DNA of 64,000 nucleotides from Maylandia zebra (taxonomy: Eukaryota > Chordata > Actinopteri > Cichliformes > Cichlidae), in contig NC_135176.1 in assembly GCF_041146795.1 (NCBI RefSeq), positions 19,355,786 to 19,419,785 of the forward strand, written 5' to 3'. This document shows positions 2,901 through 52,300 of this stretch, piece by piece. Below the pieces are notes generated by a model. It saw only the letters and a program-made list of their open reading frames with translations, ran no database searches and was not told the origin of the DNA. Position 1 is the stretch's first letter. The number at the start of each line of letters is the position of its first letter. The position numbers and the translations under genes are program-made.

Positions 2901-2935
2901 ATATATATATAGATATATCTATATATCTATATATC

Positions 2936-3027
<92 letters not shown>
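2901..3027. repeat. AT-rich lead-in and (GATA)n microsatellite
   Basis: An ATAT/GATATATCT stretch passes into more than 20 tandem GATA units (about 2936-3026). It is a simple tandem repeat and is likely to vary in length. Confidence 0.97.
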
Positions 3028-4872: not shown

Positions 4873-6891
4873 ATGGGCCCATCCTCCCGCAGGCCCACCA
4901 CCCGCAGGAGGCGCCATAGGGGTCGGGTGCATTGTGAGCCGGGTGGCGGCCAGGAGCGGAGGCCCTGGCGGACCGACCCCCGGCTGCCAAGACTGGCAAT
5001 AGGGACATGGAATGTCACCTCTCTGGTGGGGAAGGAGCCTGAGTTGGTGCGTGAGGTTGAGAGGTACCGGCTAGATATAGTTGGGCTCACCTCTACGCAT
5101 TGTCTGGGCTCTGGAACCAGTCTCCTGGAGAGGGGCTGGACTCTGTCTCAGTCTGGAGTTGCCCCTGGTGAGAGGCGGCGGGCTGGGGTGGGTATTCTTA
5201 TATCCCCTCGGCTTGCTGCCGGTACGTTGGGGTTTTTCCCGGTGGACGAGAGGGTTTGTTCCCTGCGCCTTAGGGTCGGGGAACGGGTCCTGACTGTCAT
5301 CTGCGCTTATGCGCCGAGTGGCAGTTCGGAGTACCCAGCCTTCTTAGAGTCCCTGGGGGGGGTGCTGGAAGGTGCTCCACCTGGAGACTCTGTTGTCCTG
5401 CTGGGAGACTTCAATGCTCACGTGGGTAACGACAGCGAGACCTGGAGGGGCGTGATTGGGAGGAACGGCCTCCCTGATCTGAACCCGAGTGGTGCTTTGT
5501 TATTGGACTTCTGTGCTAATCACAGTTTGGCCATAACGAACACCCTGTTCGAACATAAGAGTGTCCATAAGTGCACGTGGCACCAGGATGCTCTAGGCCG
5601 TAGGTCGATGATCGATTTTGTAATCGTATCACCAGACCTGCGACCATATGTTCTGGACACTCGGGTAAAGAGAGGGGCTGAGCTGTCAACTGATCACCAC
5701 CTGGTGGTGAGTTGGATCAGGTGGCGGGGGAGGACGCTGGACAGACCTGGTGCACCTAAACGCGTAGTGAGGGTGTGCTGGGAACGTCTAGCAGAGGCCC
5801 CAGTCCGCGAGATCTTCAACGCACACCTCCGGCAGAGCTTCAACAGCATTCCGAGGGAGACTGGGGACATTGAGTCCGAATGGACCATGTTCAGCGTCTC
5901 CATTGCCGAAGCTGCTGCATTGAGCTGCGGCCGCAAGGTGGTTGGTGCCTGCCGTGGTGGTAATCCCCGAACCAAATGGTGGACACCAGAGGTGAAGGGA
6001 GCCACCAGGCTGAAGAAGGAGGCCTATCGGGCTTGGTTAGCCTGTGGGACTCCGGAGGCAGCCGACAGGTATCGACAGGCCAAGCGGAATGCGGCTCGGG
6101 CAGTGGCTGAAGCAAAAACTCGGGTGTGGGAGGAGTTCGGAGAGGCCATGGAAAAAGACTTTCGGACTGCCTCGAAGAGATTCTGGCAAACCGTCAGGCG
6201 TCTCAGGAGGGGAAAGCGGTGCTCTACCTGCACTGTGTATAGTGCTGGCGGAGCGCTGTTGACGTCGACTGAGAAAATTGTCGGGCGGTGGAAGGAATAC
6301 TTCGAGGACCTCCTTAATCCCACTGACACGTCTTCCGGGGAGGAAGCAGAGTCTGGGGATGAGGGGTGTGACCCACCGATTTCCGGGGGCGAGGTCACTG
6401 AGGCAGTTAAACAACTCCTTGGTGGCAGAGCCCCTGGTGTCGATGAGGTCCGCCCCGAGTTCCTGAAGGCTCTGGACGTTGTAGGGCTGTCTTGGTTGAC
6501 ACGTCTCTGCAATGTTGCGTGGAGATCAGGGGCAGTACCTGTGGACTGGCAGACCGGGGTGGTGGTCCCCATCTTCAAGAAGGGGGACCGGAGGGTGTGT
6601 TCCAACTACAGGGGGATCACACTCCTCAGCCTCCCCGGGAAAGTCTATGCCAGGGTGCTGGAGAGGAGGGTTCGTCCGCTAGTCGAACCTCGGATACAGG
6701 AGGAACAATGCGGTTTTCGTCCTGGTCGCGGAACACTGGACCAGCTCTGTGTCCTCTCGAGGATACTTGAGGGTGCATGGGAGTTTGCCCAACCAGTCTA
6801 CATGTGTTTTGTGGACCTGGAGAAGGCATTCGACCGTGTCCCTCGGGGCGTCCTGTGGGAGGCTGCCCTTTGTCTCCGGTTCTGTTCATAA
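4873..6891 (+). pseudogene. Rex3 endonuclease and N-terminal reverse transcriptase frame
   Basis: This 672-codon frame encodes the APE-like endonuclease (about residues 40-280), a linker rich in Arg, Ala and Glu, and the first RT motifs up to the catalytic aspartate segment [14 protein letters not shown]. In RTE elements a single protein nicks the target and primes cDNA synthesis. The frame leaves the family sequence just after motif A at the internal deletion near 6864 and ends at 6891 with an unrelated tail. The FADD motif is encoded downstream in another frame. The start at 4873 is the first in-frame ATG after the GC-rich leader; the true start of the family protein was not verified. Confidence 0.85.
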
Positions 6892-7760
6892 TTTTTATGG
6901 ACAGGATTTCTAGGCGCAGCCAAGTGGCGGAGGGCTTTCGCTTTGGTGGCCTCAGAATCTCATCTCTGATTTTTGCGGATGATGTGGTTCTGTTGGCTTC
7001 ATCGGGTGAGGGCCTCCAGCTCGCACTGGAGCGGTTCGCAGCCGAGTGTAACGCAGCGGGAATGAGGATCAGCACCTCCAAATCTGAGGCCATGGTTCTC
7101 AGCCGGAAAAGGGTGGAGTGCCCACTCCGGGTCGGGGATGAGCTCCTGCCCCAAGTGGAGGAGTTCAAGTATCTCGGGGTCTTGTTCGCGAGTGATGGGA
7201 GAAGGGAGCTGGAGATCGACAGACGGATTGGGGCTGCGGCTGCAGTAATGCGGACGCTGCACCGGTCAGTCGTGGTGAAGAGGGAGCTGAGTGTAAAAGC
7301 GAAGCTCTCAATTTACCGGTCGATCTACGTCCCTACCCTCACCTATGGCCACGAGCTGTGGGTAGTGACCGAAAGAACGAGATCGCGGATACAAGCGGCG
7401 GAAATGAGCTTCCTCCGAAGGGTGGCTGGCCTCTCCCTTAGAGATAGGGTGAGAAGTTCGGCCATCCGGGAGGGGCTTAGAGTAGAGCAGCTGCTGCTCC
7501 ACATCGAAAGGAGCCAGCTGAGGTGGTTCGGGCATCTGGCAAGGATGCCCCCTGGGCGCCTCCTGGGCGAGGTGTTCCAGGCATGTCCCACCGGGAGGAG
7601 GCCCCGGGGCAGACCCAGGACACGCTGGAGAGATTATATCTCTCGGCTGGCCTGGGAACGCCTTGGTATTCCCCCGGACAAGCTGGAGGAGGTGGCTGGG
7701 GAGAGGGAGGTCTGGACCTCTTTGCTTAGGCTGCTACCCCCGCGACCCGACCTCGGATAA
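6860..7760 (+). pseudogene. Rex3 C-terminal reverse transcriptase frame
   Basis: From about 6860 the frame encodes [20 protein letters not shown] (motif B), LIFADDVVLLAS with the catalytic Asp-Asp pair (motif C), FKYLGVLF (motif E region), the thumb, and the conserved C-terminal domain (YRSIYVPTLTYG..LWVV, RWFGHLARMPPGR, PTGRRPRGRPRTRWRDY). It stops at 7758-7760, shortly before the GATG tail. Codons upstream of about 6860 in this frame are out-of-frame sequence. With the preceding entry it makes up one disrupted LINE ORF. Confidence 0.85.
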
Positions 7761-10700: not shown

Positions 10701-11290
10701 CAATCAATGTTTATAGATGCGGCCAGGCTCTAAGAGCTCTTGTGGTTTGTTTTTGTGTTCCTGAACATGATGTAGACGCATAAAGACAAAACCTAACTTC
10801 ACTAATGAAAAACTAAACCAGATTGAGAAAGAAGGACACGACAAAGACAATATGACACAAATCAAAGACTCAAACCAAAGATCCAATAACTTTCAGAACT
10901 AAAAAACCCACAAACTGCTTTTTTGGCTCTGGCGAAAACATCCTTACGATCCATTCCATTGACTATCACAACAATATAAAGTCACACATGATTTTGGAGC
11001 AGTCTGCTGAGAGACATGTCCAGAAACAAGAAAGTCACCTCTTTGATCTCTACAGATTTACTTGTCTTCAGTAAATGTTCCTCCTAAGACAATGTAACTC
11101 AACAATAAAGGATTTGCACTCACAGATTGGATTTCAAGCAATTCTTCAAGAAAATCATTAAGTTGGCGATAAGCCACTGTAGCCCAAAGTATGAACTCTG
11201 GCATCACCTAGTGGCTTAACGACGCAATGTGTGTTTGCATTGTTGCATTAGTGGTTTGCTTTTCTGTAATTTAATGTTTTTTTCAATTTT
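7800..11290. other. AT-rich intergenic DNA without a recognised gene
   Basis: About 3.5 kb between two Rex3 copies. Open stretches such as 9520-10008 (162 codons) show no domain, no exon-like splice sites and no family resemblance that I can see. One GC-richer patch at 10,609-10,735, preceded by a pyrimidine tract and AG, could be a small exon or a conserved noncoding piece. I see nothing else that can be supported. Confidence 0.6.
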
Positions 11291-11299
11291 ATCTCTGGT

Positions 11300-11755
11300 C
11301 AACCTGTTGTGGTGAAGAGAGAGTTGAATGTAAAAGCGAAGCTCTCAATTTACCAGTCGATCTACGTCCTTACCCTCTCCTATGGTCATGAGCTGTGGAG
11401 AGTGACTGAAAGAACGAGACTGCGGATACAAGCAGCAGAAATGGGCTTCCTCCGAAGTGTGGCTGGCATCTCCCTTAGAGATAGGATAAGAAGCTTAGCC
11501 GTCCGGGAGGGGCTCAGAGTAGAGATGCTGCTCCTCTACATCGAAAGGAGCCAGGTGGTTCGGGCATCTGACAAGGATGCCCCCTGGCGCCTCGTGGGTG
11601 AGGTGTTCCGGGCATGTCCCACCGGGAGGAGGCCCCGGGGCAGACCCAGGACACACTAGAGGAGATGGCTGGGGAGAGGGAGGTCTGGGCTTCTCTGCTT
11701 AGGCTGCTGCCCCCGCGACCTGGCCCCAGACAGGCGGAAGAGGATGGATGGATGG
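11300..11755 (+). mobile_element. 5'-truncated Rex3 LINE copy
   Basis: The sequence matches the last 450 bp of the Rex3 copy at 4555-7790. The frame at 11,309-11,659 encodes the RT C-terminal domain (KAKLSIYQSIYV, TYGHELW-like, PTGRRPRGRPRT), and a GATGGATGGAT tail ends the copy. Truncation at the 5' end is normal for LINE insertion. About 50 bp is missing after RPRTH relative to the longer copy, and many substitutions separate the two, so this insertion looks older. I did not identify a target duplication. Confidence 0.9.
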
Positions 11756-12365: not shown

Positions 12366-15300
12366 ATGAGTGCTTTGTGTCGCCTGCTTCAGAGAGGACT
12401 GCTGAGCGGCCGGCCTCTGTGTCGTTTATTCCCCGGACAGCAGGATGTTAGCTGGGTGGCTCCCGCGGTCCGGTCAGCCAGCTCATCCAGGTATCCGTGC
12501 TAGCTTTCCCGGCTAACAGATGCCCTCTGCCTGTCACGTCTGTGACATGGTTCTGGGTAGATATGACAGCCCAGTGTTTCTGCTATAAAATAAAAACTGT
12601 TTAAAACCGTTATATAACCAAAGGAATCTCTGGCCATGTCATATAATTTTTGTCTTTAAACGTTACTTTCACAGTTTTACGTAAATGACATTCAGATGTT
12701 AGCTGCATGGATAACGGGCAGCTCAACTATCATCACAACCACAAACAGGATTTTAGATCTGAGCTTTTATTATTTTATATTTATATTGTCGGGATAAATA
12801 AAACAGTCTTTGCTGTGATCTAGTTCGATTATTATATGCTACATACCTTCTGAATTGCCAGCAGTTTAGCAGTCATGCTAAGCCTGATTAAAATAAATGC
12901 TAACGTTGTTGTAATAAGCCCTTAATCTTACCTTTGTTTTGTTACTTATTTACATACATACAAATGATTTTACCTTAATTACTTTAATATTATATGAATA
13001 TTGAGAGGTACTAAGAGGTTTATTATTATTTAAGCAAGGTGTGCCCGGTAAACAGGCAGCTGCCTGCAGATATGGTAAATTTCCATTTCAGATATATTTT
13101 CAATATAAAAATAAATAAAAACACATTGAAAACCTCAGCTTAATTAGCTTTAACTGTGTGATAGTTTCCTAGCAAGCATGACAAATATTTGCTGTTTCCA
13201 GCTCGTCGACTTAAAATGTTTAGTATGGGGCGCCGTTTGTAAAGTGAAACATGCTGAAATTAACGGCAACATTTTTCCACATTTAGCTCAAAACCTTACA
13301 AAAACATATTTTTTCGAGTAATTTTTACAACATTTAGTAAAATATTTGTAACTTTTCATCAAATGTTAAATATTAAATCTAAATGTTAAATATTAAATCT
13401 AAATATTATATTTAAATCTAAATGTTAAATATTAAATCTAAATATTATATTTAAATCTAAATGTTAAATATTAAATCTAAATATTATATTTAAATCTAAA
13501 TGTTAAATCTAAATGTTAAATATTAAATCAAAATATTATATTTAAATCTAAATGTTAAATGTTAAATCTAAATGTTAAATGTTAAATCTAAATGTTAAAT
13601 CTAAATGTTTAGGCTAATATGCAAATTTATGTACGGATCAACGGAAATACCAAAATAAAAGCTTCCCGAAAACCTCCAGTGCAAAATTGTGTCTGTTCTC
13701 CTCCTCACTTCTCCCCGCCATGTGCTGCTTCACTTCTTGCCTACGAGCATGTCCAGCGATTTTGCTGTACATGTGCTGCAGCGATTGTGAAGTGGAGACT
13801 GCAGCTGCTAAGAGTGCACTACTGCTAAACCTTTGGATGGCCGACAAAACGGATCTTCCGATGTTTTCAGCTAAATCGCCGGACGTGCTTTCTCATGGTC
13901 GGGTTATGGCTGAATTCCAGTGGAATGACGGTCCCGCCATAATAGACGTTCCAGCCATGTGTTCCAGCCCTAAACCTAACCTTATCTAACTATAACCTTA
14001 TTCATAACCTTTACTAGCAGTTAAACGACGTAAAATAGTGTTTTCCAAATCGATTTTTAGAAAATGAACGAACATGTGTAGATTGAGTCCAAACGGTTCT
14101 CATGTGCTCTCCTTTTTCCGATGCCGTAATTTAGGAACATGTTGGGTACCCGAAAGCATAAAATGTTGACAATTTGTCACCTAGCGAAAATTATTACGCT
14201 TTGGGAGTGAGAACGTGTCTGACCACTACCGCCACACTTTTGCGCCGGAGGTTTTCGGAAAGCTTTTATTTTGGTATTTCCACTGATCCGTGCAATAAAT
14301 TTGCATGTTAGCCTAAACATTTAGATTTAACATTTAGATTTAGATTTAAATATAATATTTAGATTTAACATTTAGATTGAAATACAATATTTAGATTTAA
14401 CGTTTAACATTTAGATTTAACATTTAGATTTAGATTTAAATATAATATTTAGATTTAACATTTAGATTTAAATATAATATTTAGATTTAACATTTAACAT
14501 TTAGATTGAATATTTAACATTTAGATTTAACATTTAAAATTCTGTTTTAAATATGAAAAGTTACAAATATTTTACTAAATGTTGTAAAAAATTACTTGTT
14601 TTGAGCTAAATATGGAAAAATGTTGCCGTTAATTTCAGCATGTTTCACTTTACAAACGGTGCCCCATAGTTTAGTGCCTATCTTTGATTTATGTTGTTGT
14701 GAATGGATTATCTCTGGACGATGACTTCCTGTTTAACAAAATAAATGTATTAAAGCTGTCGCCTGGCACTGAGGGGCTTTAAAGTGTGTCGTTTTCATGT
14801 TTTATAGACTGAATAAATGAATAATCAAGCAAACAATCACAGGATGAGTCAGTGATGGAATAACTCACAAACACCTTGTCTCATTGTCCAATTAAAACCT
14901 GAATGTATTATTTTTCTCACAGTTTTCTGTCAGTGTTTTAATCTATTAACTCTTTGTACATGTTGTCATGTAATTAGTCATCTTCCCCTTATTAACATTG
15001 TAATGACAACAATTTAAAGTCACGGTGAAATAAATAAGAACACGTTTAACATTGATATCCTATGTTTGCACGTAAGAGTAAATGTATTAAATTCATTTGT
15101 ACATGTGTGTGGTTGCCTGTGTTGTACCAGTAGGTGACAGGAAAATAATTCCCATCAAATAAATTATTTTAACAGGGCAGTTTGAATGGGATTTAATATT
15201 AGAGAAGAAAAATGCCCTGTAAGTGACTTTAAGCATTTCTACTCCCTAAAAGTTGAATAAGAGTTTTATTTGTTGGATTTATTGCAGTTCCTGTCTAAGT

Positions 15301-18300
15301 AGTAACACAAATCTTAGCACAGCTGGAAGCATAGAGGTTCATTCTAATAAACATGAATGTTTTTTTCTTTCCCAGCCTCCTCAGTCCTGTCAACTTGACC
15401 TATGACGTCTTCGATGGGAAGGGAGAGAGCACTCCCCTGGTGTTTCTGCACGGTCTCTTTGGCAGTAAATCTAACTTCCACTCAATAGCGAAGTCCTTGG
15501 TGCAGCGCACAGGCAGAAAGGTAATGCAGTGATGAAGACAACAGACCTGTCAGTTTTTACATCAAAAACGTTCCCACTTATCTGTTCACTTTAAGCACCC
15601 TGTTAATAGTCTTCATACAAAAGCAGGTGTGGGAACGTACAGTTGACAGTGTGTTGTGTGTAATTTGATACAGCTTCCCAGCAGTCTGTGCTGTTGCGAA
15701 ATTGCCCTGACAGATAATCTCTCATGTGTTTCCTTGATGAAACTCGTGTTCACAACACATTCTTTGTTCGTGCTGGGCCCAAGACAGACACAGCTGACAT
15801 AAGAGCCAATTCTGCGTGTACGCTCTCTCGCCTCCTCTTCTCCAGTCCAAGTGTCCTAACTGTCCTTTGTCCAGTTAGGTGCTGACAGTAGATGCCCGTA
15901 ACCACGGCAACAGCCCTCACAACCCCGTGCTGACCTACGAGGCGATGGCGAATGATTTGAACCACCTCCTCGCCCAGCTCCATATCGACAAGTGCATCCT
16001 GATCGGCCACAGCATGGGTGGGAAAACAGCCATGACGACCGCTCTGACGCAGGTCAGCGGTCACAAAATGTCACATGAATTTATCATGATAGTGCAATTC
16101 CCTCGCTGGATGTCACCTGACCTTTTTCACTGTACATTCCTATGAACTTAATAATCCTCCTGTCCTAGCAATTTCCATTTTCCTACTGGTTTTCCCACAG
16201 TGGCATTTTTTACTTCCATTGTCCTGCTTGTTTACCTCAGTCTGTCTGTCTCTGTAGCCTGCTTTAGTGGAGAGGCTGGTGGTCGTTGACATCAGTCCTG
16301 CTCAAAGCAGCACACGGACCAACTTCCGGTATTACATCCAAGCAATGCAGGAGATGAAGATCTCCACAGACATCCCTCGTTCCACTGCAAGGCGGATGGC
16401 TGAGGATCAACTGCGCAGTTTAGTGAAGGTCAGGATAATCCATTACACTTCTATAATTTAATTTCTTATATTGTTGTTATTAAATGGTATTGCATTTCTA
16501 TTATTATGTTAGTATTCAGAGATGTTTTTTTTCTAAGTTTGTGTTATTATTTTATTTCATTTACTAAATGTATTGTTTGTTTTTCCCACCTAGACTAGTT
16601 GTAGGTAATTATCTTCATTGTGAGTGCTTTTTGATATGATACCAGTCAGTATTTTAAATAAATAAACCAATAAAACCAACCTTTTCCCCAAAAACGATTG
16701 TTAGTTTGTCAGAAGTGTCATTTATCTGTTTTGTTAAGGGTTTTTGTATAGATATTAAATCTGTAATAGCTGATCTGTTGGACCACTTGAGGTCAGCATT
16801 GTTCCATAACAAAGCCACTTACCATTTTAGAGTCTTGGAGAGACACAATAATGGCATTGATTATGATGACATAAGACCAGTATACTGTGTTCTAGTCACA
16901 GAGGCAGGCCTAAGTCTTTGTTTGTGTTAATGTTGAGCAAGAAGGCTCCAGAAGGTTTTTAAGAGCTTTTCTTCTTAAGAAAAGTTCCCTGTCACATCTG
17001 AGAAGGATGTTAGTGAGGAATGTGAGTAAAGTAAAAGAGGAAAGCTGTTTTCCATAAAACTATAAACTAATAATTTACATCTGTAAAATGTTAATATATT
17101 TCAATAAATCTATGTAGATTCACTACATACCAGCCCCTTCGCAAAAAAAAGGTGTTTATGCAGTTAACAGTTAGGGGTGGGGGAAAAAATCGATACTGTG
17201 TAGTATCGTGATATTTTGTTTGCTAATAATGTATCGATACAGGGACAGCAGAAATCGATATTTTGTTACAAAAAACGTTTTTGTGCTCTGACTTCAGAGC
17301 ATGTTGATCCTTTTTCTGAGCAAGAATCCTGACATTCCTTCACTGTCCAAATGTGTTTAACTTTTTTTTTTGGCAGCAATAAACATGAGAGTTTACTTAT
17401 TTTAATTTAAGACATGTTTTATTTTAATTAAGGTTAAAACTTTTTTATTTAATGTAAAATTATATTTTGTTTTAATTTACTTTCAAATTCTTCAGTTGCC
17501 GAATGGGCTGCATAGTTTTCATAAATTGCATAGTTCAGAATAGCTATAATTGTACCAGATGGTTGCATTCAGTTAAGTTGGACTAGTATGTAATACAAAC
17601 CGTTCCGTTTGTCAACAATAAAACTGACTGAAATGAGAGAAAGACTGAGTGCGAGACTTTATCAATATTCATTTTATCGAATGTCAAAGTTTACCTTTAT
17701 GTACAGAATCTGAATATCCCAGATATTTTTAAAAAAACGCAATAATATCGTATCGTGCGTTAAGTATTGTGATAATATCGTATCGTGGGATGTATGGTGA
17801 TTCCCACCTCTATCAACAGTTAAGCTCGTTATTCAATAACCTGCTGTTTCCTTCCGCAGGAACATTCAGTGCGTCAGTTCCTTCTCACTAACCTGGTGGA
17901 GCAGAACGGACACTACGCCTGGAGAGTCAACTTGGAGGCCATCTCAGCGCACCTTGATGACATCATGAGTTTCCCCAACTTTGACACCGGCTATGATGGA
18001 CCTACTCTGTTTTTGGGTGGAGCTAGTTCTGCTTATATCAGGTATAAAACACAGATTGTGAACTTTTTTGAACAGGTAAAATATTTCCTGAAAAAGGTTC
18101 ATATTATAACATTTAAAACTAAAGTATTTAGATTTTATATATTTATGAAAATAGGAAAATATTTAACAAAAAAAATGCAAGTGGACACGAAATCATTCTG
18201 GGATGCTGGGACTGACCATTTAGTCAGTTTCTCTGATTACAAAAATGTAAACAATCCAATTAAAAATGATAGAGGTTACCTTGAGCTTATCGTAAATACC

Positions 18301-41465: not shown

Positions 41466-44400
41466 TTAACCTTTGAGAGAAGACATTCCAGCTCGCATGA
41501 TCTCATCCACCAACAAGATGTTGCTTGCGATCACCGTGCTGTGAACAGAGACCCGTGTTAGTGACCCATGTGGGCGATACATCGGGGTAATTTAAAACAT
41601 TCCTTCGTCTCACCATGAGTGAAGAAGCTGTTTCTTGACACTGTAATTATCCCATACGCCTGCTTCTCCTGCCACCATTGGTTCTCCTGCAAAGCAAAAG
41701 GTTAGAATTAAAAAAAAAAAAGGTTTAAATTCTGCCAAATTGTTACTGTTTAATAACTTCACATAGCTAAATACAACAATTATAGAGTTTTACTCTAAAC
41801 TTTAAAATGCAATCACTTCAGGATTGACTGATCGCTGCTGTGGTTCTCACCTGTGCTGAGGTCTACTCCAACTAGCTGGCCAGACTCTTTGTACTCTGTC
41901 TGCAGCTTCAGCAGGGTCTCCTGTGGGTCGTAGCCAGAGTTCTGGGCCAGAACCTAAGAACAGAAAGATGGCATTTTAAAAACATCAGTAAATTTTGATA
42001 CAGGATGGACTATAAGAAGGTGACAAATAATGGTGCAGCAAGAAACAAACCAGGTTTCGGTTAATAAAAATGACAGAAAATGAATTATTCTTTACCTTAG
42101 GGATGACTAGGAGAGCATCTGCAAATGCCTGGACTCCCAGCTGGGCTCTGCCTTTCACATTGGGCTTGTGTTTTACCAGAGCGTCTGCCACAGCAACTTC
42201 AAAGGCACCTGCACCGGAGACTACACTACCTGAAGACAGAAAAATAAAGATATTTAGGAAAGCAAACAAATGTGTCATATAAATTAACCCACTCGGGGAG
42301 GGAACAGCTCTAATATTTAAAACAATTAGTGGAGTTTGTTCTGATCAGCTGAATACATGTAGGAGAGACTAAACTCTCCTAATGCAGAGGATAAGATCAG
42401 AGTCATTGTAGCACAGACACTGAGACCAGGGAGAGCCACACTAGCATCCCTGGGTGTTCGCTGTGCAAATGAGACCTGTTCTGTTTTCCTTAAGGACAAA
42501 TTAACCACCTTCAATTTCAGCTTGTTATCAACATAAAGAGAAAATGGATATTTTGATCTACAGTTTGTCCACACAATATTTGGAAAAAGCCTTAAAGGAC
42601 TTCAGAGTGTTGTTTCATGAATGAATTTCTGCTTAAAGAATTCTAAAAACACTGATTTGTCTGCACACAGACATTAAAAAAAAAGTGTTAATCTGTTTAA
42701 AAAGGTAGCATTTTATAAGCCATACTAATGGTCAAGCAGAGCATCCAGTAGGATTAATTCAGATAGAACAAAACTGCAGAAATTCATCATCAACAAAAGT
42801 TTATGTTAATAATTTTTTAGTAAAAGGATTTTAAAAAGTAAAATAAGCATAGAGGAAATGTTCAGCTCTTACCATCTTCAATAGCGTTCTTTACTGCCCG
42901 CAGACCGTCCCTTACGGCATCTTTGATCTGTGTGAGGGTGTGTTTGTTGGGTCCCTTCACCAGCAGGGTAACTGAGCGAGGGTTTCCACACTTCTCGATG
43001 AACGTGTACTTCTCCTCTCCCTGCAAGCAAGGTTGCAGCATTAATATCATTTTAATTTTAAAAAGTTTAAATTTCACAGTTTTGTGGACTGAAAGGTAAA
43101 AAATAGACCCCCCCCCAAAAAAAAGTCTCACCAGTGTGTGTTCATAAACCAGGCCAGCATGTCCCAAGCATTCAGGTGTGAGGTCATCAACTGAGTTCAT
43201 GGCGATGCCACCGCAAGCGAGGGTGAGCCTGTCACAGGAACGACACACTGAGTGTAATTCAGCTTCTTAATATATGACTGACTGACACCGGCTGGTAGTG
43301 TAAAGCACCTGTACGGGTGTGTCTGTGCCAATTTCAAAACATAAAGCATGAGCTCATCTCAGCATGTTAAATCAAACAATTCAAAAATCTTCTATGAACT
43401 TTTATCTAAGTAATGTAATGCTCATCTCAACTATAAAACACCACCAACATTTATAACACTGAAAAATATTTTTCTCACCTCTCCATGTTCCTCCTCTTTG
43501 CCCTCCGCAACCCAACAATGCCCTCTTTGGCTAGGGCGTCCAGGGAGAATGGGTCAATACCCTAAACACACACACAAAATAAGAAGACATGCTTGAGACT
43601 GCAGTTTACACTAAATAGTTCGGTAAATCTAAGCGATGTAAAGATTATCCTGATCCGCTGAATACATGTAGGGGAGGAAGAGACTCTCCTAATGCAGAGG
43701 TACAGATCAGAGTTACTGTAGCACAGACACAAAAACCAGGGGGAGCCATGATAGCATCCTTGGGTGTTCGCTGTGCATGCAGCCAGATTGGCTGGGCCAG
43801 TCTCAAAAGGCTTAGTGTTCATATGAAAACACAAAGTCAAATTACGAGCCTGTATCTTTAGTAGTACAAGCCAGACTGAACTGAGTTTGACAATTCTTTT
43901 TTTTTAAACTTTAGCCTTTGAACTATGTTAACATCCGCATTTTCTAGCATACCTTCTGGTTAATGACGACAAAGCCCTTGTCCCCATTGGGACACACTTT
44001 GTTTTTCAAGGCGATAATCTTCTGCACGCGGTCCTCGATGAACTTCCTTTCTGCAGCCACGAGCTTCTCCCTCTCATCAGCGCTCTTGTAGAAGAAGCCA
44101 GAGTTGACCTCGGTCTTCTCGTACTCCAAAGAGACGTTGCACGTCAGTATGTAAGCATCCTCCACCCTCTTCTTCATGTCTGGGTGCCGGGCGCCGTGGT
44201 CCAACACCAGACCTCTGATCAGCCTAAGAAATAACAGATCAGCATTTAGAATTCACAGTTAAGCACAGTCTTGTCTTATTCCCCTCTCCACCTCTGTATT
44301 TACACTTACTGTGTATCACAGTCGGTCTTGTGCTTCATCTCCATGATTTCCACCATATACAAGTCAGTGGGTTCATTGGGTTTAGCGATGGCGAGCACAG

Positions 44401-49388: not shown

Positions 49389-52300
49389 CACATATTTTAA
49401 GCTACTTTTATTTGTTTTTAAATGTTTGTCCAATGCTGCCCCTCTGTACCTCTCTGAGCTTCTTCATCCATACATACCTTCCTGGCAGACCAGCTCCTGC
49501 TGAGTGTGCCTAGGACTAATGGTAAGCTCAGAGGGGATCAGGCGTTTGCTGTGGCAGCACCAAAATTGTGGAATGAGTTGCCTTTACATGTTAGACAGGC
49601 ACCTTCCTTATCCGTTTTTAAATCACGTCTTAAAACATTTATTTACCTTGGCTTTCAGCACAGAAGGACTTGTTGATGTCTCTTAATATGTTTTCTTATT
49701 AATTATATTATTTTTAATTTTAAGAAATTTTAGATGTAATTTAAACTGTTTTCTCTTTATTTTATATTTGTAGCACTTTGGCCAACATTGTTGGATGTAA
49801 AGTGTGTTATAAATAAAGATGCTATATTTGTAACACAGCTCACTGGTGAAAGTCTGCAAAGCTCTATGTACAACCAACACACTTTAGAGCAGAAGTGGGC
49901 AATTAATTTTCCCAAGAACTTTTACAGCCATGACAAGTTTTAGTGGCTAAAATGTCCAGTGAATGAACAAAAGTAACTCACTGACACTATTGTTCCCGCC
50001 TCCTCAAGTAGACTTTGGCTGTAGCTGAATAGTCAGTTTTTCATTGGGAAGCTTCCTAACAGGGAGACTTCATTGCCGGCTAAGAGGTTACATTTTCTAA
50101 ACACTAAAGAAAGATTATACGATGCTTCTACACCTCATGCAGCTTACGAAATTCACTGGCATTAATGAGGTTTAACATAATTCAGTTTGCAGTTTCGCCA
50201 GCATTTAGGGATAACATTAATTCACATAAAACATTAGTAGATGCCACACTGATCATCTCTTCAGCAGGAAGCAGCTAAATGAAAAACTCATTTACCACAA
50301 AGTTGTCTTTGTTTATATGATCTGCAGCAACCACAGCAATGACACAACAGGATGAAGTATCAAAGATGTGCATTTTGCAATTCACCTTTAGATTATAGCA
50401 GTTTCAACGCTGCGAAGCCAAGTCAACAGCATCTACTGACACACTGCAAGCACTTTAGTGCAATCTGAGTCTCTTTTCCTGTGTCCTGTGTTCTACTTCA
50501 CTGTTTTCCTTGCTCTCATGATGCTTTTTCTCCCAGTAAAGCGATTATAAAAAAGACACTTTGTAAAAGGTCAATTTCTTTTCTGTAGGTTTGCACCTAT
50601 TGTATCTTTTTAAAACACGGCATTTAGTTCTCAAAATTCATTATTACCAAGGTGTGTAAAAAAGTCAATACTTCCAGTATTTGAAGCCCTGAGAAGAGAA
50701 TATGTTGACAGTATTAGTAATTAGTCTTCATTGTTTTAATCTATTCTTGATCGACAATTTATAATAAGTTGTTGGCAGCTTGGGTTCATCCGAGCTTAAA
50801 TGTTTGAAATTAATATTTTCATTTAACGTTAACATGACACAAATATGGATAATAGATATAAAATAGGTTAATTTTAATGTCTTATGCCCACAACAGAACA
50901 ACAAGACTCAGCACTCACAGTAACTAAAACTTGCTTAAGTATAAAAGTATCAGACTGAAACCAACCTGTGTAATAAACAACCTCGTCCCAGCCGTCACGC
51001 TGCCAGGCTGCGTTTCTGGTATTTTCTCTGGACTGCAGGTCCTTGTAAGCTGAAAAGAAACACGTTCAAACTCACTGAGTAAAAGCTGTAGCTTTTTAAA
51101 CCAAAGACGAATCATAACGTCAAACAGTCGTGCTCAGGAAAATTTAAATACTTGACAGCTTTTGCATTAAGTTCACTTCCAGAACCTAAAGGTGCACACC
51201 GTCACGTGGAAAGAAAGAAGAGCAACACCAAGTAAACTGTTTAATGCTACAAGCAAAATGGGAGCTTCTTTCAGCAGTACACATTTGATGCCGGATGCAC
51301 CCTCCAAGGGATTCGTCCCCTCTCCTGGTCCTGGACTTTTTTACATCAGCAGTCCCCAACCTTTGTTGCGCAACGGACCGGTGTAATGTCAGACAATATT
51401 TTCGCAGACTGGCCTTTAAGGTGTCGCGGATAAATACAAAATAATTAAAATAATACGACCAAGACAAAAACTGTGGTAATTTGTAAATATAATAATAAAC
51501 CCGAATTCACTGTGTAATTGTGTAACTTTATTAGCAGCGTCCTCCTGAAATGTACCAACAACATTAAGAGTAACATCCTCCTCTCTGCCCCTTAATGCTC
51601 TCTGGTCACTATGGTAACGCGTAAATACTGGTCTGTGGCCCGGTGTGGGGACCGCTGTTTTACATCTAAAAGGCATGTACCAAAAACATGTACATACATT
51701 TGCATTTGTAGGTGACCTGGACAATATTTGCAGCATTTTTCTTGAATGATCCTGGAAACTCATCTTACCCCATAAGTGGTGAACTGTGTACAGACTTCCA
51801 ATCTGTGAGAAAAAGCCTCCCACCGCCTCTTGGTTCTGCTGGCGAATCTCAATAGCCCGAGCCCTGCACAGCACCAAAGACATTACACAAAACAGCTTCT
51901 AAATAGAGTGGCAGTAATTAAAACACCACAACATCCACCAGTACTCCCCTCATTTCAAGTCAGTACATCAAATTTCAGTTTTAAACCATCAGCCTTGTTA
52001 TAATCATCCCTGCATATTTGGTTTTATAAAATTAACAAAAATCAATTTCAATTCAACAGATGAATATATTGACATATATTAAATGAAGCCCAGGCAGTTA
52101 ATGGATTATTATATGCGGTCATGCTCAGGAGTCATGCATACATTTTGTAGTCAGAAAGTACTGCAGACTCATTTTCACCTGCAACAAAATGTGAAACCAA
52201 CAAACTAGCAGTGAGGAACTTTTTAGATTGTAGCTACAAGACTAGAACAAAGGGAACTAAAGCTCGCAAAGTTATCCCCCATAAATGATCAAATTTGGTG

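Follow-up and report, generated by a model that had tools for sequence, protein, structure and literature searches.

A non-autonomous foldback element in a cichlid intron, probably derived from an IS3EU-type DNA transposon

The element described here can be compared with two foldback elements of Drosophila. Galileo, a member of the P superfamily, resembles it in its long inverted arms, which contain tandem repeats that differ in number between the arms of a copy, but differs from it in its 7-bp target duplications and P-type transposase (PMC3573991). Tetris of Drosophila virilis also has a non-coding middle and tandem repeats in its arms, and its description reports that an autonomous copy was not found; unlike our element, it makes 8- to 10-bp duplications, and its authors assign it to Mutator (PMC4079207). 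The Tetris paper also refers to the opinion that separate lineages may each have arrived at the foldback shape on their own, and a foldback element in the IS3EU superfamily would be consistent with that.

In this superfamily, every complete IS3EU family has TA..TA ends, and the target site duplications (TSDs) are usually 6 bp long (PMC10045372), while a fungal IS3EU set has 6-bp TSDs, terminal inverted repeats (TIRs) longer than 30 bp, and ends of the form TAYGG..CCRTA (PMC12730594). IS3EU is also recorded in fishes. A four-teleost table gives 17,838 copies (0.21%) in its first column, which we take for zebrafish, and the table has an IS3EU value for that one species only (PMC4746887); the superfamily is also recorded in yellow catfish and annual killifish. 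Further comparison facts come from PMC3706591, PMC9945428, PMC12763893, PMC8268682, PMC5844308, and PMC8097293.

We analyzed a window of 64,000 nucleotides from Maylandia zebra (NC_135176.1, positions 19,355,786 to 19,419,785), to which all coordinates below refer. Positions 13224 to 14668 form a single inverted-repeat element of 1.4 kb, in which arms of 474 and 442 bp flank the spacer (Table 1). From outside to inside, each arm consists of three parts: the outer block, the AT-rich array, and the inner block. When the element was compared with the window, the arms aligned with each other over 472 columns at 84.5% identity (13224-13691 against 14233-14668; BLASTN, E = 1.3e−122), which, together with the block comparison, bears out the mirrored arms with AT-rich arrays that the initial annotation had described. 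Counted without gaps, 113 of 116 positions are identical between the outer blocks, 202 of 213 between the arrays, and 77 of 88 between the inner blocks; there are 4, 8, and 2 gap events, respectively, and about 21 bp of the left outer block are absent from the right one. The long TIRs, internal tandem repeats, and non-coding middle are those of a foldback element, a term that describes shape and not lineage. A Pfam scan (E up to 1) of all 17 open frames of at least 28 amino acids in 13600-14330 gave no match above the curated cut-offs, and neither of the two matches below them (NuBaID_C, E = 0.073; XET_C, E = 0.039) is a transposase. With no sign of a recognizable transposase in these frames, we consider the element non-autonomous.

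Table 1. Coordinates of the foldback element, its target duplication, and the host intron
Feature	Positions	Strand	Description	Evidence
Host intron 1	12491..15375	+	ABHD11-like gene, GT..AG, 2885 bp	flanking exons join in frame
Left target-site duplication	13218..13223	+	GTTTAG	abuts left end
Left outer arm block	13224..13360	+	137 bp, starts TATGGGGC	113/116 vs right outer
Left AT-rich array	13361..13606	+	246 bp, GC 0.098	exact 39 bp unit x3
Left inner arm block	13607..13697	+	91 bp	77/88 vs right inner
Spacer	13698..14226	.	529 bp, without recognizable coding sequence	Pfam scan of frames
Right inner arm block	14227..14315	-	89 bp	arm alignment
Right AT-rich array	14316..14545	-	230 bp, GC 0.135	exact 32 bp unit x3
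Right outer arm block	14546..14668	-	123 bp, finishes GCCCCATA	arm alignment
Right target-site duplication	14669..14674	+	GTTTAG	abuts right end

The hexamer GTTTAG lies directly outside the two termini, TATGGGGC and GCCCCATA, so that the element itself begins and ends as TATGG..CCATA. Among the registers within 4 bases of these edges, only the 6-bp one gives equal ends, and a 7-bp repeat (GTTTAGT) is possible with unequal ends. The register test thus agrees, for this one insertion, with the earlier placement of GTTTAG exactly at both edges. At this base composition, the probability of a 6-base match at a given fixed position is 3.0e−4. We also scanned the window for inverted 12-mers that begin with TA, have at most 1 mismatch, lie 80 to 6000 bp apart, and are flanked by a 6-bp repeat. 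The element is the sole match of this strict scan, compared with an average of 0.067 in 30 order-1 random sequences, the TA start having been picked after the element had been seen. A looser scan (any ends, 2 mismatches) found 24 pairs, compared with a mean of 6.7 in random sequences; among the 19 pairs listed, 9 involve a microsatellite near 2.9-3.0 kb. The looser form is therefore unselective, and the element stands out in the stricter form alone. Taken together, the data support a DNA transposon that is non-autonomous, has inverted repeats, and is flanked by a 6-bp direct repeat.

The GATA-type microsatellite at 2914-3023 is a source of many false inverted pairs in such a scan. A scan for 8-bp repeats lists a transposon-like insertion of 311 bp at 51347-51657, with inverted ends CAGCAGTCCCCA (1 mismatch in 12) and a flanking TTTTACAT repeat, which indicates that the scan is able to detect transposon insertions; presumably, this insertion is a hAT MITE. 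There is a resemblance between the left flank of the foldback element, TAAAATGTTTAG (13212-13223, including the target duplication), and the left array at its inner edge, CTAAATGTTTAGG (13601-13613). Because each strand of the window has one occurrence of ATGTTTAG elsewhere, this likeness may be due to chance.

The initial annotation had left the superfamily of the element open as not obvious. We propose that the element probably derives from an IS3EU-type DNA transposon as a non-autonomous foldback form, because it fits the IS3EU traits of ends and duplication given above, as judged on a single copy. Its termini TATGGGGC..GCCCCATA have the TA..TA form, TATGG..CCATA agrees with TAYGG..CCRTA, a consensus worded for fungi and applied here to a fish, and its inverted ends exceed 30 bp, with outer arms identical at 113 of 116 positions. 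The GTTTAG repeat has the 6-bp length expected of IS3EU in this one insertion, or 7 bp if the ends are allowed to be unequal. IS3EU, taken with GingerRoot, shares all of these properties; the element is unlike IS3EU in that it lacks a transposase and has arms of 442-474 bp that bear tandem arrays. The initial annotation had also called 6-bp duplications rare. They are not unique to one group, being made by IS3EU/GingerRoot, hAT6, Dada, and Polinton, and a non-autonomous hAT6 element is still a live rival for the assignment.

An end consensus of hAT elements is YARNG. TATGG agrees with it at four of five positions; at each end of the element, the third base departs from this hAT consensus, while the fit to IS3EU has no mismatches; this comparison is with the general hAT consensus and not with the ends of hAT6. 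The hAT6 branch makes 6-bp rather than 8-bp duplications, as the element does. Families of hAT with 6-bp TSDs exist (PMC12730594), and hAT elements are plentiful in teleosts (PMC4746887). Even as the main live rival to IS3EU, a hAT6 origin appears unlikely to us. We likewise give a low probability to a foldback form of some other or undescribed superfamily with 6-bp duplications, including a remnant of Maverick/Polinton or Dada, or a Mutator-like element with an unusual duplication. Most foldback elements are thought to be Mutator-related, but the Mutator foldback Tetris makes 8- to 10-bp duplications (PMC4079207). Vertebrate Mavericks combine 6-bp TSDs with TIRs that range from 46 to 1,447 bp, but their ends carry AG or AGT motifs; the ends of our element, TATGGGGC, do not have such AG- or AGT-repeat motifs, and we rejected Maverick/Polinton. 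Dada, which has TSDs of 6-7 bp and no TIRs and sits in small RNA genes, was rejected as well: the element has long TIRs, ARAGORN found 0 tRNAs in the window, and the window's 2 Rfam matches both lie at 42-44 kb.

The remaining alternative is not a transposon at all but a local inverted duplication flanked by GTTTAG by chance. It would agree with the lack of a second copy within the window, where the outer, inner, and spacer blocks match outside the element only at E of at least 0.014 and the arrays have no match outside it at 1e−3 (BLAST). Searches in other sequence sets, which carry little weight for a fish element, gave 0 matches in viral contigs for the exact TIR pattern and for the inner-block pattern, 0 in prokaryote genome contigs for the exact outer-block pattern, and no BLASTN match of the whole element to plasmids. 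Against a local duplication stand the symmetric ends, the repeat placed exactly at both of them (a chance of 3.0e−4 for the repeat alone), and the match of the ends to a published superfamily, and we regard it as very improbable. Chance pairing was rejected on the BLASTN alignment of the arms, the strict scan, and the 3.0e−4 match probability.

Under the IS3EU assignment, the ends would have been bound by an IS3EU transposase, which is a DDE enzyme of integrase-like type, supplied from another place in the genome. The ends and the duplication suggest that this enzyme then excised the element and inserted it at target-strand positions 6 bp apart, after which gap repair would have left GTTTAG on each side. 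The element is of an ordinary kind, a non-autonomous foldback transposon, and most likely belongs to IS3EU, a superfamily for which we have not found this shape described. In the literature searched, the one paper that contains both the word IS3EU and the word foldback has the latter only in the title of a reference. A bolder proposal, possible but in our opinion doubtful, is that the element represents the first described IS3EU foldback lineage, one in which a superfamily with an integrase-like transposase independently evolved satellite-like arrays, with a higher-order repeat in each arm, and spread through fish genomes and introns.

The arrays consist mainly of four words (TAAATGT, TAAATAT, TAAATC, and TATATT), the sense of which is mirrored between the arms, with tandem-repeat periods of 13-59 in the left array and 7-90 in the right. 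Longer units are arm-specific: a 39-bp unit has 3 exact copies in the left array and 0 in the right, and a 32-bp unit has 0 in the left and 3 in the right. The arrays therefore do differ between the arms, as the initial annotation had noted. From these arm-specific units built on common short words in a single copy, we infer that the arrays probably expanded separately in each arm once the words existed. They may have arisen within the arms through slippage or unequal exchange before growing separately. By analogy with Galileo, the arrays may act as additional, putative transposase-binding sites (PMC3573991). The left outer block contains two occurrences of ACATTTAG in the opposite sense. Reverse-sense 8-mers common to outer block and array were matched by 95 of 1000 shuffles on the left and 131 of 1000 on the right, and 7-mers by 23 and 60 of 1000, respectively. 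We dropped the array word as a copy of the outer-block motif because shuffles reach it too often, and the binding-site idea thus gains no support from a common motif.

Mismatches are more frequent in the inner blocks (11 of 88) than in the outer blocks (3 of 116; Fisher's test, P = 0.009, with the blocks picked after the alignment had been seen), which suggests that part of the divergence between the arms predates the insertion. In the spacer and in the outer and inner blocks, CpG observed/expected ratios span 0.90-1.32, compared with 0.67 and 0.39 in the 1-kb flanks, the left of which contains exon 1, possibly raising the flank value. The arrays have ratios of 0.00 on the left (excluded from the above range, at a GC content of only 0.098) and 0.98 on the right. 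The near-identity of the outer arms and the high CpG ratios of the non-array blocks suggest a fairly recent insertion. If dispersed copies exist, such paired arrays, alike at the start and now different, would be a gauge of how short words turn into higher-order repeats.

The element makes up half of intron 1 of its host gene. Exon 1 spans 12366-12490 and exon 2 spans 15376-15520, and the reading frame continues from one to the other across the intron. The next exon, in an open frame from 15879, matches alpha/beta hydrolases (Pfam, E = 8.2e−10) and esterase YbfF (PDB, E = 1.8e−13). We call the gene ABHD11-like, after the name given in the initial annotation. That annotation had suggested that the arms could pair in the ABHD11 pre-mRNA. 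Since both arms lie within one intron, both would be in one pre-mRNA, and a fold between them is predicted. Folded alone, the element RNA is predicted to form 385 pairs between the arms, at an energy of −627 kcal/mol, compared with −261 to −295 for 8 mononucleotide shuffles. Such a fold would be expected from any long inverted repeat and is uninformative about cellular effects. An intronic hairpin this large could interfere with splicing or become a target of RNA editing; most likely, however, the element is intron ballast whose transcript could fold into a long hairpin, with a neutral effect on the host gene.

Other features of the window include a LINE-type retrotransposon at 5002-7757; its two overlapping frames contain Pfam domains of an endonuclease and a reverse transcriptase. 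A piece at 11270-11656 looks, by eye, like the 3′ part of this LINE and has no Pfam match. Two SNORA22 H/ACA snoRNA matches, at 42334-42468 and 43643-43778 on the minus strand, score above the Rfam gathering threshold.
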